Shown one piece after another: positions 5,993 through 53,114 of a DNA stretch of 64,000 nucleotides; the first letter of the stretch is position 1; each line of letters begins with the position of its first letter. Source of the stretch: Amycolatopsis regifaucium. Lineage in GTDB: Bacteria > Actinomycetota > Actinomycetes > Mycobacteriales > Pseudonocardiaceae. A program made the translations under genes and the position numbers. A model generated the notes under the pieces. It had not been told where the DNA came from. It saw only the letters and a program-made list of their open reading frames with translations, and did not search any database. The DNA lies in contig NZ_LQCI01000012.1 in NCBI RefSeq assembly GCF_001613935.1, positions 186,001 to 250,000 on the forward strand. Direction: 5' to 3'.

Positions 5993-6040
5993 GGTCGTGA
6001 GTGGCGATTCGGGTTAGAACCCGAATCGCCACTCACGACC
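5993..6040. terminator. 23-bp-arm palindrome, likely bidirectional terminator
   Basis: Perfect inverted repeat: arms 5993-6015 and 6018-6040 (GGTCGTGAGTGGCGATTCGG... and its complement) with a 2-base centre. It lies 26 bases after the hydrolase stop and before the minus-strand ATP-grasp remnant, so it would serve both directions. No U-tract. Its sequence differs from the other palindromes of this window. Confidence 0.75.
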
Positions 6041-14887: not shown

Positions 14888-15358
14888 ATGACGGAACCCA
14901 GCGCCACCGGCGAGATCGCGATCGCCGCTCCGCCCGAGAAGGTGTACGCCCTGGTCAGCGACCCGGGCGCGCTTGCGGAGATGTCCGAAGAGTACGAGGG
15001 GCACCGCTGGGTCGGCGGCGCGAAGGGCCCTGCTGTCGGCGCGAAGTTCCGTGGCCGCAACCGCCGTGGGTTCCGCCGTTGGAGCACCCTTTCGACGATC
15101 ACCGACGCCGACGAGGGCAAGCGCTTCGCGTTCGAGGTGACCACCTTCGCCGGGCTTCCCGTCGCGCGCTGGCAGTACGACATCGAGGCCACGGGTGAGG
15201 GCTGCGTGGCCGTCGAGAGCACCTGGGACCGGCGCCCCGGCTGGCTCCGGGCCCCGACGTCCCTGTTCACCGGGGTCTGGAACCGGGACGACGCCAACCG
15301 GGCGAACATCGCCGCGACGCTGGCCCGGCTGAAGGACGCCGCCGAATCCCGCGTTTAG
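14888..15358 (+). CDS. SRPBCC-family protein (polyketide cyclase/START-like)
   Basis: 156 residues with the helix-grip fold signature: GEIAIAAPPEKVYALVSDP at the start, WVGGAKGPAVGAKFRGRN, and the long C-terminal helix ANIAATLARLKDAAES. Such proteins hold hydrophobic ligands or act as cyclase/dehydratase-like enzymes; the ligand is unknown. GGAGG precedes ATG 14888. The last codons and the TAG stop lie inside the palindrome at 15354. Confidence 0.85.
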   Translation: MTEPSATGEIAIAAPPEKVYALVSDPGALAEMSEEYEGHRWVGGAKGPAVGAKFRGRNRRGFRRWSTLSTITDADEGKRFAFEVTTFAGLPVARWQYDIEATGEGCVAVESTWDRRPGWLRAPTSLFTGVWNRDDANRANIAATLARLKDAAESRV

Positions 15359-15411
15359 TCCTCTGAATGCGGTGGTTCGCACCCCCCGACTTCCGCATTT
15401 AGAGGACTAAA
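15354..15411. repeat. Stop-codon-containing palindrome, copy 1
   Basis: Arms TTTAGTCCTCTGAATGCGG (15354-15372) and CCGCATTTAGAGGACTAAA (15393-15411), one G:T wobble, 20-base loop. The TAG stop of the SRPBCC gene is at 15356-15358, inside the left arm. The same core, GCATTTAGTCCTCTAAATGC, recurs at 48761 at the end of hspR. Likely bidirectional terminator between convergent genes. Confidence 0.82.
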
Positions 15412-47169: not shown

Positions 47170-48339
47170 GTGAGTGCACGGGAATGGATCGGTAAGGACT
47201 TCTACCGTGAGCTGGGCGTCTCCTCCGACGCCACCGCGGACGAGATCAAAAAGGCCTATCGCAAGCTGGCCAAGGAGAACCACCCCGACGCCAACGCGGG
47301 CAACGCGGAGGCGGAGAAGAAGTTCAAGGCGGTCTCCGAGGCTTACGGCGTGCTTTCGGATTCGTCCAAGCGCAAGGAGTACGACGAGGCCCGGCGCCTC
47401 TTCGGTTCCGGCGGTCCCGGTGGCTTCGGTTTCCCTGGCGGCGGTGGCGCCGGCGGTTTCGACGTCGGCGATATCTTCGGCCAGGCCGGTCAGCAGCAGG
47501 GCGGCTTCGGCGGGCTCGGCGACATCCTCGGCGGTCTCTTCGGCCGCCGCGGTGCCGCCGGTGCCACGGCGAACCGGCCGCAGCGCGGTTCGGACGTGGA
47601 GACCGACGTCCGGATCGACTTCACCGAGGCGGTCAAGGGCGCGACCCTGCCGCTGCGGTTGTCGAGCCCGGCGACCTGTTCCACCTGCGGCGGGAACGGC
47701 GCGAAACCGGGGACTTCCCCGAGGACGTGTTCGACCTGCCAGGGCAGCGGGCTGGTCAGCCGGAGCCAGGGCGCGTTCGCGTTCTCCGAGCCGTGCCGCG
47801 ACTGCCGTGGCCGCGGCACGATCATCGACGACCCCTGTCCGGAATGCGCTGGCGAGGGCATCAGCACCCGCACCCGCACGCTGACCGTGCGGATCCCGCC
47901 GGGCGTCGCCGACGACCAGCGGATCCGGCTCGCCGGCCAGGGTGAACCGGGCAAGGGTGGCGCGCATCCGGGCGACCTGTACGTCCGCGTGCACGTCGCA
48001 CCGCATCCGGTGTTCGGGCGGCAGAACCTCGACCTGACGATCACCGTGCCGGTGTCCTTCGCGGAACTGGCCCTCGGCGGCACGATCACCGTGCCGACCC
48101 TCGAGGGCAAGGTCTCGCTGAAGGTGCCGCAGGGTACGGCGAGCGGCCGCGTGCTTCGCGTGCGTGGCAAGGGAATCGCGAAACGGGACGGTGCGCAGGG
48201 CGATCTTCTGGTCACCCTGCAGGCGGCCATTCCGTCCAAATTGGACGACAAGGCCCGTGAGGCGCTGGAAGCCTACGCGAAGGCCACGGCCGACCACGAC
48301 CCGCGACCGGAGATCACCGAACTTCTCGAAGGCAGGTGA
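47170..48339 (+). CDS. dnaJ: Chaperone DnaJ (Hsp40)
   Basis: 389 residues, type I J-protein: J-domain with the HPD triad (KENHPDAN), Gly/Phe-rich stretch (~85-130), and four zinc repeats CSTCGGNG, CSTCQGSG, CRDCRGRG, CPECAGEG, followed by the C-terminal client-binding domain. It activates DnaK ATPase. GTG 47170 with GAGAGGAGGAGA in front, 33 bases after grpE. Confidence 0.97.
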   Translation: MSAREWIGKDFYRELGVSSDATADEIKKAYRKLAKENHPDANAGNAEAEKKFKAVSEAYGVLSDSSKRKEYDEARRLFGSGGPGGFGFPGGGGAGGFDVGDIFGQAGQQQGGFGGLGDILGGLFGRRGAAGATANRPQRGSDVETDVRIDFTEAVKGATLPLRLSSPATCSTCGGNGAKPGTSPRTCSTCQGSGLVSRSQGAFAFSEPCRDCRGRGTIIDDPCPECAGEGISTRTRTLTVRIPPGVADDQRIRLAGQGEPGKGGAHPGDLYVRVHVAPHPVFGRQNLDLTITVPVSFAELALGGTITVPTLEGKVSLKVPQGTASGRVLRVRGKGIAKRDGAQGDLLVTLQAAIPSKLDDKAREALEAYAKATADHDPRPEITELLEGR

Positions 48340-48341
48340 GC

Positions 48342-48773
48342 ATGATGTTCGGCGGGCTGCCGCACGGTGCGGACGAAGACACGCCGGTGTTCGTCATCTC
48401 GGTGGCGGCGCAGCTTTCCGGGATGCACGCGCAGACCCTCCGGTCCTACGACCGGCAGGGTCTCGTGTCCCCTGGCCGGACCTCCGGCGGTGGCCGCCGC
48501 TATTCCATGCGGGACATCGCGTTGCTGCGCGAAGTGCAGCGACTGTCCCAAGAGGACGGTGTCAACCTCGCGGGCATCAAGCGGATCATCGAACTGGAGA
48601 ACCAGGTCGACGCGCTGCGGAGTCGGATCGCCGAACTGACCGAGGAGCTCACGGCCGCGTACGTCGCCGCCGAACAGACGGCCGCGGCCGTGCACGCCTC
48701 CTACCGCAAGGACCTCGTGCCCATGCGGCAGCAGACCGCCTTGGTGATCTGGAAGCCCAAAAAGCGCATTTAG
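48342..48773 (+). CDS. hspR: Heat-shock repressor HspR (MerR family)
   Basis: 143 residues. MerR-type HTH: FVISVAAQLSGMHAQTLRSYDRQGLVSPGRTSGGGRRYS, then the coiled coil KRIIELENQVDALRSRIAELTEEL. It represses dnaK and clpB by binding HAIR repeats, with DnaK as co-repressor. ATG 48342 is preferred; an in-frame GTG at 48336 overlaps the dnaJ stop. The last three codons and TAG stop lie within the palindrome at 48761. Confidence 0.96.
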   Translation: MMFGGLPHGADEDTPVFVISVAAQLSGMHAQTLRSYDRQGLVSPGRTSGGGRRYSMRDIALLREVQRLSQEDGVNLAGIKRIIELENQVDALRSRIAELTEELTAAYVAAEQTAAAVHASYRKDLVPMRQQTALVIWKPKKRI

Positions 48774-48812
48774 TCCTCTAAATGCGCTTTGGCATTTAGA
48801 GGACTGAATGCG
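48761..48812. repeat. Stop-codon-containing palindrome, copy 2
   Basis: AAAGCGCATTTAG (48761-48773) pairs with CTAAATGCGCTTT (48778-48790); a third arm GCATTTAGAGGACTGAATGC (48792-48811) can pair instead with GCATTTAGTCCTCTAAATGC. The hspR stop TAG is at 48771-48773. Two alternative folds are possible. Shares its 20-base core with the 15354 element. Confidence 0.82.
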
Positions 48813-48814
48813 TT

Positions 48815-49420
48815 CTACTGGCCGGGGACCAGGGCGCGCAGTTGCTGGACCTCGCCGGTGCGCGAGTCCATGATCCGCTGGGCCAGGGCCTTCGACTCCG
48901 GGTTCTTGCCGTCCTTCAGCTCGGTCCTCGCGAGCGCGACCCCGTTGTGCTGGTGCGCGACGAGGATGTCCACGAAGTCGAGGGTGAAGTCCCCGCCATC
49001 CTTTTTGGACAGTGCTTCGAGCAGCCCCTTGTCCGTGAGCCCGTCGCCACCGTGATGGTGGTGCGCGTGCGGGTCCATCGAGCCGGTCTCGGGTTTGCCC
49101 CAGGACTTCAGCCAGTTCCGCATGTCGGAGCTCTCGGTCTGCTGCGTCGCCTCGATGGCGGCCGCGAGATCCTTGAGCGGCTGTTGCTGTCCCTGTTTCG
49201 TGTGCACCAGCTTGACGATCTCCACGCCCTGGTTGTTGTGGGCGAGCATCATCTGCAGGAACATCACGTCGGCGTCGTTGTACTCCGCGGACGCCGAGGT
49301 GCCCGTCGCCGACTGGGGAACCGGGGAGATCGGGGCACCGGCGGTGGTGGGTGAGCCATCACCGGTCCCGCAGCCCGCGAGAGCCACGAGACCGGCGACG
49401 AGTATCAGGCCGAACTTCAC
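48815..49420 (-). CDS. DUF305 lipoprotein, His/Met-rich, likely copper-binding
   Basis: 201 residues with lipoprotein signal KFGLILVAGLVALAGC (lipobox LAGC, Cys 17). The DUF305 four-helix domain has its two Met/His motifs, DVMFLQMMLAHNNQG and DFVDILVAHQHNG, plus an exposed DPHAHHHHGG loop between them. Cyanobacterial CopM, a DUF305 protein, binds copper. It starts 12 bases after the LPMO stop, with the AGGGG of its ribosome site overlapping the LPMO TAA, so both are translated from one mRNA. I infer copper supply to the secreted LPMO. GTG start. Confidence 0.88.
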   Translation of the reverse strand: MKFGLILVAGLVALAGCGTGDGSPTTAGAPISPVPQSATGTSASAEYNDADVMFLQMMLAHNNQGVEIVKLVHTKQGQQQPLKDLAAAIEATQQTESSDMRNWLKSWGKPETGSMDPHAHHHHGGDGLTDKGLLEALSKKDGGDFTLDFVDILVAHQHNGVALARTELKDGKNPESKALAQRIMDSRTGEVQQLRALVPGQ

Positions 49421-49432
49421 TGGCGGGTCCCC

Positions 49433-50185
49433 TTACTGCCGGGTCCACAGTGCCGGGGTGTTCGGCGGTTCCCAGCCTTGGATCGCCGTATGCGCCAGCT
49501 GGCAGCGGTAGGACGCGCCGCCGTAGGTCACCGTGTCGCCGACCGAGTAGGCCGACCCGGCCGCCCAGGTGCCACCCGCGGGCGGAGTCGTGGTGCTGGT
49601 CGGGGGATTCGACGTGCTCGGCGGGTTGCTGGTGGTCGGCGGATTGCTCGTCGTGGGCGGGTTCCCGCCGCCGATCTGCAGGTCGATGCAGCTGTAGAAG
49701 GCCATCGGCGTATCCGCGATGTTCCAGATGGCGAGGACCTTCTGACGGCCGCTGAAACCGCTCAGGTTCACCGTGTGCGACGTCGGGTCCTTCGGCGCGG
49801 AGTTGTTTCCGCTGATGTCGGCGATCTTGGTGCCGCCGATGTAGTACTCGTAGTTCGTGGTCCGGTGGTAGGCGGTGAACTTCCAGTTGAAGGTCACGCT
49901 GTTGCCGACCGAAGCGGCGGGCCACGACTTCGATTCGTCGTTGAGCTGCGCGAACCCCGGCACACCGCCGTTGCAGCTCCGGAGTCCCTTCGGACCTTCG
50001 ACGCTCTGCGGTTCGTAGGTGATGCTGCCGCAACCGGAGACCTTGCCCTGTGCGCAGTTCGCCTGACGGCTGGGTGGGGACAGCACGTAGCCGTGCGCGC
50101 TGGCCACCTGCGGGATGGCCACGATGGCGATCGGCGCGAGCACCGCACCGGCGGCGGCTGCCATGAGCTTACGTTTGACGGTCAT
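49433..50185 (-). CDS. Chitin-active lytic polysaccharide monooxygenase (AA10) with CBM5/12-like domain
   Basis: 250 residues. Signal peptide ~1-30 ends at ASA|HGYVLSPPSR, leaving His as mature residue 1, the first ligand of the copper histidine brace; the second is His ~107 in WKFTAYHRTTNYEY, and the axial Phe is in MAFYSCIDLQI. A Thr/Pro/Ser/Asn linker (NPPTTSNPPTTSNPP) leads to a C-terminal carbohydrate-binding module WAAGSAYSVGDTVTYGGASYRCQ. The enzyme cleaves crystalline chitin oxidatively outside the cell. A perfect DasR operator lies 49 bases upstream; the DUF305 gene follows. Confidence 0.94.
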   Translation of the reverse strand: MTVKRKLMAAAAGAVLAPIAIVAIPQVASAHGYVLSPPSRQANCAQGKVSGCGSITYEPQSVEGPKGLRSCNGGVPGFAQLNDESKSWPAASVGNSVTFNWKFTAYHRTTNYEYYIGGTKIADISGNNSAPKDPTSHTVNLSGFSGRQKVLAIWNIADTPMAFYSCIDLQIGGGNPPTTSNPPTTSNPPSTSNPPTSTTTPPAGGTWAAGSAYSVGDTVTYGGASYRCQLAHTAIQGWEPPNTPALWTRQ

Positions 50186-50233
50186 GCCGGCTCCTGGGAT
50201 GGAACGACGGTGTTCCCGCGAGGGGGAGCAATG

Positions 50234-50245
50234 TGGTCTAGACCA
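50234..50245. promoter_or_regulatory. DasR operator (dre) upstream of the LPMO gene
   Basis: TGGTCTAGACCA, a perfect palindrome identical to the core of the DasR-responsive element of chitin and N-acetylglucosamine genes in actinomycetes. DasR releases it when GlcN-6-P or a related sugar phosphate builds up. It is 49-60 bases before the LPMO start in the 159-base gap to the next gene. Confidence 0.85.
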
Positions 50246-50344
50246 TAGATCCGCCGGTGACCAACGGTCAATGATTCACCGGCCCACTGCTGCGTAGAGC
50301 CCAAGTGGAACAGCCGATCGGCCTAATACGAAGGAACCCCCGGG

Positions 50345-51556
50345 TCAATCCAGGGTGAAGGGGTCGTACTTGATCCGGGCCAGATCCGTCCCGGTGGCGA
50401 GCAGTTTCGCGATCGTCGCGCGAATCATCGACGGCGAACCGGCGACGTAGACGTCACGGTCCGGCCACTCTCCGCGCTGCGTGACCGCCATGGCCAGCGT
50501 GCCGCGGTCGCCGCCGGGAAGGGTGCCTTCCTCGGTCACCGGGGTCACCGTGAGCCAAGGGCAGGTGACGGTCAGCTCGCGGAGGTCGTCGAGGGCATAG
50601 AGGTCTTCCGGCCTCCGGCCACCGAAGAACAGGTGCACCGGCGGGTTGTGGCGCCAGCGGGACATGTCGTCGAGCAGGGCGAGCAGCGGCGCGATCCCGG
50701 TACCACCGCCGATCATGAGCAGCGGGCGGCTTTCCGTGTGGTGCACCGAAAGCGCGCCGAGCGCGGGGCCGATGCGCCAGACGTCGCCGACCCTGGTGTG
50801 ATGGACGATCGCGCGCGAGACCCAGCCGCCGCGCACGGCGTGCACGTGGAACTCCAGCGTTCCGTCGTCGTGCGGCGCTGTCGCCGGTGAGAAGTACCGC
50901 CACATCCGGGGGCGCTGCGGGACTTCGACGCTCACGTAACCCCCGGCCCGGTACGGCAGTGGCTGGTCGGTGCGCACCTTGATGACGGCGACGTCGCGGG
51001 AGACGCGGCGGTGTTCGACCACCGTCGCCTTCCACCACGCCGGCCCGATCTCCTTGCCCGCGGCCTCGCGCATGCTTTTCGAAATGACGCCGTACGCGGT
51101 GACCCAGGCGTCTTCGACCTCAGGCGTCCAGTCGTCCTTCAAGAACCGTTTCAGCGCGGTGATCAGCGCGACGCCGACGGCATCGTAATGGCGGCCGAGG
51201 ACATCGAACTTCCGGTGGTCCCGGCCGAGCTGGCTGAGGAATGTGGACAGTTCGTCCGGCCGGTCCACCATCTGTACGGCGTAGACGAGGGCGCGCAGCA
51301 AACGATTTCGTTGCGTGGCCATGTTGATCGGGAACAACGCCCTGGCGTCCGGCGAAACCGAGAAGAGCACCCCGTAGAAGTACTGGGACAGCTCCTCGGC
51401 TTTCGTTTCGACGGCGGCGAAACTTTCCCTGATGAGCTTGGCCGGCTGGATGGTCTTGTCCGCCGCCGGTGCTTCGACCAGTGGCGGAACGGGAACCGGT
51501 GGCGAAGATCTCGGCGAACCAGGCGGCTGTTCGTACTTCACTGTTTCGGCAGTCAT
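50345..51556 (-). CDS. Flavohaemoglobin-like protein, copy 1 (atypical FAD motif)
   Basis: 403 residues: Pro-rich N-terminus (~1-38), globin domain (~39-170), then FAD- and NAD-binding reductase domains. Globin: Tyr 61 (B10-like, SQYFYGVLF) and proximal His 114 in LGRDHRKF. FAD domain: YRAGGYVSVEVP, then WRYFSPA at ~219-225, where the usual R-x-Y-S reads R-Y-F-S. NAD domain: IGGGTGIAPLLALL (~282-295) and AGSPSMIRATIAKLL. Classical members turn nitric oxide into nitrate; the altered motifs make another role possible. ATG 51556 gives the same length as the 51909 paralogue. Confidence 0.87.
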   Translation of the reverse strand: MTAETVKYEQPPGSPRSSPPVPVPPLVEAPAADKTIQPAKLIRESFAAVETKAEELSQYFYGVLFSVSPDARALFPINMATQRNRLLRALVYAVQMVDRPDELSTFLSQLGRDHRKFDVLGRHYDAVGVALITALKRFLKDDWTPEVEDAWVTAYGVISKSMREAAGKEIGPAWWKATVVEHRRVSRDVAVIKVRTDQPLPYRAGGYVSVEVPQRPRMWRYFSPATAPHDDGTLEFHVHAVRGGWVSRAIVHHTRVGDVWRIGPALGALSVHHTESRPLLMIGGGTGIAPLLALLDDMSRWRHNPPVHLFFGGRRPEDLYALDDLRELTVTCPWLTVTPVTEEGTLPGGDRGTLAMAVTQRGEWPDRDVYVAGSPSMIRATIAKLLATGTDLARIKYDPFTLD

Positions 51557-51908
51557 GGGTGAACGATTTTCTCCAGTTGGATCGGGCATATTCTCCAGAC
51601 CCGATGTCATCGTGCTCGTGTTCCCCCGAAGGTTCCCGACTGTAGGCCCGGCCGCGGAAAAAGGATCCGATAATCGTTGTTTCCCGCTCGAACGGAGCAA
51701 ACGATGTACGCGCCGTAAACCCCAGCTGGCACTCGGTGAAGATGATCAAATGACCGGATTTTTTCCTTGTCCACCAGGTCTTTTCGCCAGTTCGAAGCAA
51801 AGCGTGATCCGCCGATCGGGTGGTGTTTCTCCGTGATTACCCGGTCGCGTAACAGCACTCGGCTGTCCCCATTGTGGAATCACATTAGAACGGTGGCGGA
51901 AAGGGCCG
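51557..51908. other. 352-base gap between the flavohaemoglobin-like genes, no gene seen
   Basis: Part is the open upstream extension of copy 1 (ATG 51589, ATG 51610 in frame), which lacks domain likeness and is judged leader. The rest is A/T-richer, with an ATTTTTTCC tract near 51760. I see no tRNA, small gene or strong palindrome; copy 1's promoter must be here. Confidence 0.5.
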
Positions 51909-53114
51909 CTAGTCGATGGTGAAGGGGTCGTACGCGATCTGGTCGAGCGCACTGCCCGCGACCAGCATCCGGGACACCGTCGCCCGGATCATCGTCGGCG
52001 AGCCGGAGACGAGAATCCGGTGCCCGGGCCAGGATCCGTGCTGGGTAACGGCTTCCGCGAGCGTGCCCTGTACGCAGCCGGGGGCTTCGTCACCGCGTTC
52101 GACCACCGGGGTAACGGAGAGCCACGGGTTCGTGGCGGCGAGGGCGCGCAACTCGTCGAGGTCGTAAAGGTCCTCACGCGACGGTCCACCGTAGAACAGC
52201 CGAACTTTCGGGTTCTCGCCCCATTGCGCCAGGTCGTCCAGAATGGCCCGCAACGGCGCGATACCCGTACCGCCCGCGATCATCAGCACGTCGCGGCGGT
52301 CGGTCCGGTCGACCGAAAGCCTGCCGAGCGGCGGGCCGAGCCGCCAGACGTCGCCCGGCTGCGTGTGGCTCACGATGGCGCGGGACACCCAGCCGCCGTC
52401 GACGGCACGCACGTGGAACTCGATGCCGCCGTCCTCGCGTGGAGCGTTCGCCGGGGACAGATAGCGCCAGAGCCTCGGCCGCTGCGGTACTTCGACGCTC
52501 ATGTACTGGCCGGGCTGGTACGGCACCGGGTATTCGGGCTGGACGCGGACCAGCGCGAGGTCCCAGGTGAGCCGCCGGTGTTCCAGCACGGTGGCCGACC
52601 ACGACGCCGGGTTCACGTCGGCCGCGGCGGCCTCCTGCATCGCGCGGGCGACGATGGTGAACGCCTCCGCCCAGGCCCGTTCGACCTCCGGTGTCCAGTC
52701 CGGACCGAGGTGGTTCTTGAGCGCGGCGAGCAGTGCCGTGCCGACGGCCTCGTAATGCCGCGGGATGACGCCGAACTTGCGGTGGTCGCGGCCGAGCTGG
52801 GTCAGGAACGGCACGAGATCATCCGGCCGGTCGACCATCTGGACGATGTGGACCAGCGCGCGCACCAGCCTGCCGCGCTGGACCTCCATGTTGATCGGGA
52901 AGAAGTCCCGGGTGGCGGGCGCGAGGGTGAACAGCATGCCGTAGAAGAACTGGGAGATCTCCGGGATGAACGGCTCCGACTTCGCCCAGGTGTCGCGGAT
53001 GAGCCGCACCATCGCGGTGACCGCCGGCGGGGCTGCCCTCGGCGCCGAAGACCGGGGAACCGGGCTGACCGCGTCGGCTGTCACGGGCTGGGGGTCGCTG
53101 ATCGGGAAGTGCAT
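51909..53114 (-). CDS. Flavohaemoglobin-like protein, copy 2 (atypical FAD motif)
   Basis: 401 residues, same plan as copy 1 with about 60% visibly shared positions. Globin: FFYGMLFTLAPATRDFFPINMEVQRGR and proximal His in LGRDHRKFGVIPRHY. Reductase: YQPGQYMSVEVPQRP, WRYLSPANAP (R-Y-L-S at the FAD site), IAGGTGIAPLRAILDDL and SGSPTMIRATVSRML. Both copies end DPFT(I/L)D. So this is a duplicated, self-consistent subfamily. Divergent from a MarR gene, with the operator between them at 53356. Confidence 0.87.
   Translation of the reverse strand: MHFPISDPQPVTADAVSPVPRSSAPRAAPPAVTAMVRLIRDTWAKSEPFIPEISQFFYGMLFTLAPATRDFFPINMEVQRGRLVRALVHIVQMVDRPDDLVPFLTQLGRDHRKFGVIPRHYEAVGTALLAALKNHLGPDWTPEVERAWAEAFTIVARAMQEAAAADVNPASWSATVLEHRRLTWDLALVRVQPEYPVPYQPGQYMSVEVPQRPRLWRYLSPANAPREDGGIEFHVRAVDGGWVSRAIVSHTQPGDVWRLGPPLGRLSVDRTDRRDVLMIAGGTGIAPLRAILDDLAQWGENPKVRLFYGGPSREDLYDLDELRALAATNPWLSVTPVVERGDEAPGCVQGTLAEAVTQHGSWPGHRILVSGSPTMIRATVSRMLVAGSALDQIAYDPFTID

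Follow-up and report, generated by a model that had tools for sequence, protein, structure and literature searches.

The copper of LPMOs is harmful to the enzyme as well as to the cell, and how secreted bacterial LPMOs acquire it is, to our knowledge, an open question. In the tyrosinase operon of Streptomyces, MelC1 is the small copper-loading partner of an exported cuproenzyme, a role which was shown experimentally. We know of no copper partner of LPMOs from the DUF305 family.

CopM of Synechocystis PCC 6803 is a DUF305 protein and is documented, in the accessible part of its description, for copper resistance and not for copper supply (PMC4335983). The same text calls an HH motif in each half of the protein the hallmark of DUF305. 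A second related system is the Met-Met-His site in the CBM2 domain of cellulose-active AA10 enzymes. According to the available sections of PMC12703677, it is a Met/His copper site dedicated to AA10, which is normally located on the chain of the LPMO and is active separately, too.

A literature search, which covered few subscription papers, yielded in the texts available no report of an AA10-DUF305 pairing and none of a bacterial partner protein encoded with an LPMO for copper delivery or protection. The sole match to DUF305 together with LPMO was false, as it concerned DUF3050.

Organization of the Locus

The window, a stretch of 64,000 nucleotides from Amycolatopsis regifaucium (contig NZ_LQCI01000012.1, positions 186,001 to 250,000), carries on its minus strand, in this order, a dre operator, an AA10 LPMO gene and a DUF305 gene (Table 1).

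Table 1. Features of the AA10-DUF305 locus; positions refer to the window.
Feature	Position	Strand	Basis
Promoter-like TTGACC-18-TATGGT, -10 box overlapping dre	50242..50271	-	consensus scan
dre TGGTCTAGACCA, palindromic	50234..50245	-	exact match
AA10 LPMO with CBM5/12, 250 aa precursor	49433..50185	-	Pfam
LPMO signal peptide, residues 1-30, predicted cleavage before His31	50096..50185	-	read from sequence
AA10 catalytic domain, residues 31-171	49673..50095	-	Pfam, alignment to solved AA10
Brace His31	50093-50095	-	alignment to PDB 5aa7
Brace His107 (mature His77)	49865-49867	-	alignment to PDB 5aa7
CBM5/12 domain, residues 206-247, behind Pro/Thr/Ser linker	49445..49570	-	Pfam
Ribosome-binding-like AAGGGGA, purine-rich, over LPMO stop codon	49428..49434	-	read from sequence
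DUF305 lipoprotein, 201 aa, GTG start, AA10-linked subfamily	48815..49420	-	Pfam, neighbour loci, tree
Lipobox LAGC, residues 14-17, Cys17	49370..49381	-	read by eye
DVMFLQM motif, residues 51-57	49250..49270	-	LPMO-first alignment
HxxHG linker motif, residues 120-124	49049..49063	-	LPMO-first alignment
Strong palindromic hairpin, DUF305 gene to convergent HspR gene	48762..48811	.	fold z-score -6.8

The LPMO belongs to AA10 with a Pfam LPMO_10 score of 82.7 bits (cut-off 23) and carries a CBM_5_12 domain (62.6 bits). In the alignment, His31 corresponds to the first residue of mature AA10 structures. By sequence, the nearest solved AA10 catalytic domain is PDB 5aa7, which we take to be JdLPMO10A of Jonesia denitrificans; both brace histidines are aligned with it. 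The initial annotation had described a chitin-active AA10 LPMO with a mature N-terminal His and a second brace His at about residue 107. Both histidines are in place, and the prediction of a chitin-type AA10 is supported. The CBM5/12 domain was absent from that annotation and proved to be relevant to the pairing described below.

Between the LPMO stop and the DUF305 start lies a gap of only 12 bp (49421-49432), and a ribosome-type site covers the LPMO stop codon; the close spacing claimed before is thus confirmed. In the region 48300-50500 the consensus terminator scan listed no terminator between the LPMO and DUF305 genes. Based on this spacing, both genes may be transcribed on one message.

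The hairpin downstream of the DUF305 gene was not among the terminators listed by the same scan. It is formed on GCATTTAGAGGACT(A/G)AATGC and also occurs at 15357-15408 of the window. The half-site has 24 exact matches in the genome versus none for the reversed control. It is a dispersed palindromic repeat and a possible terminator between the convergent genes. A second dispersed palindrome, containing GAGTGGCGATTCGGGT, is located at about 5999-6034 (contig positions 191999-192034), with 60 exact matches on both strands of the genome versus none in the control. In a near relative (locus L008, genome G045), the gap from the LPMO gene to the DUF305 gene measures 96 bp and contains a copy of the GAGTGGCGATTCGGGT palindrome. 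The gap in A. pittospori (L165) is also 96 bp.

Conservation of the AA10-DUF305 Pair

The pair was examined from both sides. In the LPMO-first census, the two-domain LPMO was used as query against 249 Pseudonocardiaceae genomes and found a match in 169, from which 90 loci of 80 genomes were taken, namely the 30 best and 60 chosen among the matches listed. An AA10-DUF305 pair was present in the fetched loci of 69 of the 70 sampled genomes with a two-domain AA10, which represent 10 genus groups. The neighbourhood search proposed in the initial annotation therefore found the pair far beyond this strain. The exception, genome G062, has a two-domain AA10 without any DUF305 pair. The count of one pair per genome holds for the fetched loci, since at least two full-length rows (G233, G161) were left out. 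Six genomes of the Pseudonocardiaceae sample contain additional two-domain AA10 copies without DUF305.

Among the AA10 frames of loci L037-L160, 76 of 98 with a CBM5/12 domain were linked to DUF305 versus none of 27 without a detected one, as judged by a CBM5/12 model built from 3 sequences, which was also used for the LPMO-first census. The link is looser outside the Pseudonocardiaceae, where 7 of 19 CBM5/12-bearing AA10s of the class sample (L132-L160) were linked.

In the DUF305-first direction, each of the 30 best loci of the genus (60 genomes, window included) shows a co-directional AA10 gene upstream, together with an exact operator. Furthermore, one genome per species (GTDB 220) was searched with 14 linked query proteins, and the best 80 of 319 relatives were kept. 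An AA10 gene is located directly upstream on the same strand in 79 of these 80 named loci; as linked DUF305s served as query, this number describes the subfamily and not DUF305 at large. The sole exception, L201 from a Sphaerisporangium metagenome bin, shows no AA10 within its 10.5 kb. The named linked organisms belong to the Pseudonocardiaceae, Micromonosporaceae, Streptosporangiaceae and Thermomonosporaceae. Locus L210 (JOAA01000032.1, titled Rhodococcus rhodnii) is probably misnamed, and L174 (titled Nocardia sp.) may be likewise.

The gap could be determined for 74 pairs and has a median of 39.5 bp. It is 100 bp or shorter in 61 pairs, and the genes overlap in 27, in 25 of them by exactly 4 bp. 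These gaps and starts derive from a lipobox rule, which failed in 6 of the 80 loci. In a class sample of 394 genomes, compared by eye, an AA10 gene was found beside 18 of the 21 best DUF305 matches outside the window. Twenty of the regions listed were fetched; the 13 previously judged to be linked proved to be so, and no AA10 is present in the remaining 7, which include the three exceptions.

Several genomes of the family coded f19 (e.g., G551, G599, G660) possess two or three AA10-DUF305 pairs. The idea that one DUF305 copy serves all LPMOs of a cell was therefore rejected as not general.

The other neighbours vary between genera: no family recurs in more than 20 of the 80 loci, which equals the number of Amycolatopsis loci. 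Clusters judged to be shadow frames of the pair were set aside from this count. Among the 25 largest neighbour clusters (80 loci, up to about 10.6 kb), no further copper gene was found that would form a conserved third member.

On the strand of the LPMO and upstream of it, two globin-FAD-NAD (flavohaemoglobin-like) genes stand in tandem (50345-51700 and 51909-53114); such genes are also present in 20 of the 80 named DUF305 loci. In addition, loci of the genus group g8, including Lentzea, contain a second, oppositely oriented DUF305 gene approximately 790-890 bp away from the LPMO. This applies to L086, L092, L094, L098, L102, L104, L105, L108, L109, L112-L114 and L116, and for six of these loci the second gene was placed outside the linked clade in the tree. 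The A. regifaucium genome itself encodes five more DUF305 genes (L001-L004, L006), most of them with the HH motif.

Putative DasR Operator and Promoter

The initial annotation had placed a perfect DasR operator 49 bases upstream of the LPMO. The match to TGGTCTAGACCA is indeed exact, and the distance to the LPMO start is 48 bp. The window has no second exact match, and a search tolerating as many as two mismatches gave 5 sites versus 1.2 expected. The 8.27 Mb genome contains six exact sites versus one for the reversed control pattern. Besides the site at the window LPMO, one lies 132 bp before the match of a single-domain AA10, and three are found at a CBM2-fn3-GH18 protein, a GH18 protein and a ROK-family gene (distances of 56, 98 and 189 bp, respectively); the sixth is located at the start of the longest frame of PTS enzyme I. 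This gene set looks like the DasR core regulon. The accessible part of the description of the core regulon in Streptomyces coelicolor gives a 16-bp dre consensus which contains the 12-mer (PMC4398421), and the six targets agree with that regulon.

One promoter-like site was found in the region 48300-50500 versus 0.1 expected, a consensus match which is no evidence of function. The overlap of its -10-like box with the dre sequence fits repression. The LPMO promoter thus seems to bear a dre of the DasR regulon as a putative operator.

Among the 79 named pairs, 49 have an operator within 500 bp (46 exact, 3 with one mismatch). None was found within this distance at the remaining 30, a part of them truncated at the end of a contig, and none at the named pairs of the Micromonosporaceae, Streptosporangiaceae and Thermomonosporaceae. 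At the 69 Pseudonocardiaceae pairs of the LPMO-first census, the operator is exact in 63 cases and has one mismatch in 5. Single-domain AA10 loci were considered as well, and 8 of the 12 fetched carry an exact operator without a DUF305 gene. Shared regulation cannot explain the pairing for this reason, and DasR control was rejected as its cause.

Sequence and Predicted Fold of the DUF305 Lipoprotein

The DUF305 protein is a member of PF03713 with a Pfam score of 117.8 bits (cut-off 27). Its lipobox Cys17 is kept in all 69 linked DUF305s of the LPMO-first set. In agreement with the lipoprotein assignment made earlier, it is predicted to be membrane-anchored via this cysteine.

Residue counts were taken from the 69 linked DUF305s of the LPMO-first set, since these were gathered without any DUF305 query. 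A further alignment (A2, 63 of 75 available rows) has Met53, Met57, His120 and His123 in 63 of 63 rows, a result that is partly by construction because the search patterns contained parts of these motifs. In the LPMO-first set, Cys17, Asn48, Asp51, Met57, Glu96, Trp107, His123, Gln157 and Arg187 are identical in 69 of 69 proteins, and Gln56, Trp103, His120 and Gly124 in 68. His156 is present in 66, Met53 in 62 (otherwise Thr, Ala or Val) and Met100 in 55. The initial annotation had pointed to an HHHH stretch and Met/His motifs. The stretch is present at residues 120-123 and Met57 is kept, but only the first and last His of the four are conserved.

The HH motif of DUF305 is degenerate in both halves, as the window protein reads HN and HQ. 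In the linked DUF305s, His61 is found in 56 and His62 in 42 of 69, and position 157 is always Gln and never His. Part of the genus Amycolatopsis shows QN and QQ at the motif positions. In the unlinked rows L001-L004 and L253-L255, read by eye, position 157 is His or Leu.

The DVMFLQM motif does not distinguish the linked clade cleanly and was rejected as its signature: linked members of g8 contain DVMFAQM or DVTFVQM, others carry Ala, Val or Gln as residue 53, and some unlinked DUF305s also have DVMFAQM. Met57 and the HxxHG linker seem to be older features, as the linker is visible in CopM and in several unlinked paralogues. The NCBIfam model of the CopM metallochaperone (NF049983) gave 76.1 bits, which is below its cut-off of 90.

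An AlphaFold2 model of the protein (pLDDT 82) was compared with solved structures using Foldseek. The best matches were the DUF305 structures 3bt5 (E 2.1e-6) and 2qf9 (E 7.5e-6), followed by CopM in Cu(II), Cu(I) and Ag forms. Weaker matches were obtained to Dps and other ferritin-like folds. According to the model, the protein is helical and folded like the DUF305 proteins of known structure.

The plant-immunity elicitor BAR11 (PMC5900052), a DUF305 protein from Saccharothrix yanglingensis, was rejected as a candidate for a linked DUF305. In the accessible part of its description it has a mass of 27.9 kDa and 21 negatively and 25 positively charged residues, versus 20.4 kDa and 28 and 15, respectively, for the linked DUF305 of that strain.

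Origin of the Pairing

A tree was calculated from 64 linked and 20 unlinked DUF305 domains (84 in total) by a quick method with midpoint rooting, and four long end branches were flagged. The linked DUF305s fall into one group of 65 rows (SH-aLRT 97), whose sole unlinked member is L201, and the label linked or unlinked changes only twice on the tree. The same clade also follows a second, distant AA10 subtype with CBM5/12 (L245 and L247-L251; f19), which has the mature start HGSMSNPPSR or HGTLSDPPSR. As the partners of this second subtype lie inside the one linked clade, the association seems to have arisen once and to have moved later onto a different AA10 backbone.

Proposed Function of the DUF305 Partner

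The order of the genes and how widely it is kept were computed directly, as were operator, lipobox, predicted fold and conserved residues; from these we infer copper binding by DUF305, its contact with the LPMO and the direction of transfer in the following scheme. DasR would repress the promoter, and GlcNAc from chitin would lift this repression of a two-gene, chitin-induced module, whose LPMO and DUF305 protein would be made together from one message, as suggested by the spacing. The LPMO would cross the membrane and signal peptidase would expose His31, so that the copper site would exist outside the cytoplasm only. The DUF305 protein would be tethered by lipidated Cys17 at the same membrane face. 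It would bind copper via Met57, His120 and His123, plus Met53 and Met100 in most members, and would hand it to the histidine brace just after exposure, when the LPMO has yet to diffuse to chitin. Because the site would form only there, a co-made lipoprotein tethered outside the cytoplasm would be well placed to load it.

A dedicated copper-handling partner of the LPMO is the best reading, with delivery at the membrane somewhat likelier than scavenging. It is based on the LPMO-first (69/70) and DUF305-first (30/30 and 79/80) counts, the single clade, the close spacing beside varying other neighbours, the CopM-like fold and the invariant residues Cys17, Met57, His123 and Gln157. The retention of the pair across four bacterial families suggests that DUF305 handles the copper of the LPMO. 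A copper-handling role of some kind appears probable, and delivery of copper to the LPMO is placed a little short of an even chance.

Several observations speak against delivery. The HH motif is lost, Met53 is absent in 7 of the 69 proteins, the score with the CopM model lies below the cut-off, and no other copper gene was found among the recurrent neighbours (25 largest clusters). Moreover, CopM acts in copper resistance in the accessible text on it (PMC4335983). AA10s without CBM5/12 and some two-domain AA10s are unpartnered, which shows that LPMOs can be metallated without an adjoining DUF305. The variation at Met53 and the several pairs in one genome slightly lower the expectation of delivery and of a dedicated chaperone. 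The most specific proposal is that a distinct actinomycete DUF305 subfamily (Met57, Gln157, HxxHG) acts as membrane-anchored LPMO metallochaperone, which arose once, was kept in four families and spread with the CBM5/12 architecture to a second AA10 subtype. It is tentative and should be taken as possible rather than probable.

Copper could also flow away from the LPMO. DUF305 would then be a Cu(I) buffer or scavenger, which takes copper from damaged LPMOs or from the surroundings of the chitin-grown cell and limits Fenton chemistry and the self-reinforcing inactivation of LPMOs. CopM lowers cell copper and gives resistance in the available part of its description (PMC4335983), and the Met-Met-His CBM2 binds Cu(I) and slows the inactivation of cellulose-active AA10s, also as a separate domain, in the available part of PMC12703677. 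The kept DUF305 residues are comparable (Met57, His120, His123 and, in most members, Met53), and the partner follows the CBM5/12-bearing AA10s. By analogy, chitin-side LPMOs may solve the same problem as the CBM2 Cu(I) site by using a separate protein. However, the predicted membrane anchor would keep DUF305 away from the chitin-bound LPMO, and the operator in the window and at most Pseudonocardiaceae pairs speaks for chitin induction and not for copper stress. Scavenging is rated as less likely than delivery, of which it is the strongest and a serious rival, and the two roles are compatible with each other.

A partner role without copper, in which the four-helix DUF305 binds the LPMO, chitin fragments, a surface redox partner or another metal, appears improbable. 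Where the title of a solved relative mentions a bound metal, this is copper or silver (CopM; 7vw1, "bound with cuprous ions"), and the HxxHG linker and Met57 are kept. On the other side stand the weaker Foldseek matches to Dps and other ferritin-like folds, the degenerate HH motif and the residues Asn48, Asp51, Gln56, Trp103, Trp107, Gln157 and Arg187, kept in 68-69 of 69 proteins; based on the latter two points, the role of the conserved surface may lie in contact and not in metal binding.

Finally, it is very improbable that the two genes lack a functional link and are merely carried in one transcription unit, as extra two-domain AA10 copies without DUF305 in six family genomes and G062 without any pair might indicate, since the pairing is kept across four families while the neighbours change, and the linked DUF305s form a single clade that is also found behind the second, distant AA10 subtype.

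A dedicated copper-handling partner may be relevant for enzyme cocktails; the use of LPMOs in these is limited by copper release and self-inactivation, as stated in the available sections of PMC12703677. With a partner gene that four families have retained and that is missing behind AA10s without CBM5/12, the copper question becomes testable.

Comparison With Known Systems

Like the MelC1 system, the locus encodes an exported cuproenzyme together with its own small partner. MelC1 differs in belonging to a protein family other than DUF305 and in that its role was shown experimentally. Dedicated copper partners of exported enzymes are thus already known from MelC1, and the pairing of DUF305 with an LPMO appears to be new.

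The window protein shares with CopM the DUF305 fold, the export and the HxxHG Met/His linker, and matches it with an E-value of 4.5e-24 (PDB 5ffa). CopM belongs to a resistance operon induced by copper and has the HH motif intact, according to the accessible part of PMC4335983, whereas the DUF305 gene of the window is located behind a chitin-type LPMO under a putative DasR operator, and its product does not keep this motif.

Compared to the CBM2 site of the cellulose-active AA10s, the DUF305 partner is a separate lipoprotein of another fold, which is encoded behind a predicted chitin-type AA10-CBM5/12 enzyme and whose copper binding is a prediction.
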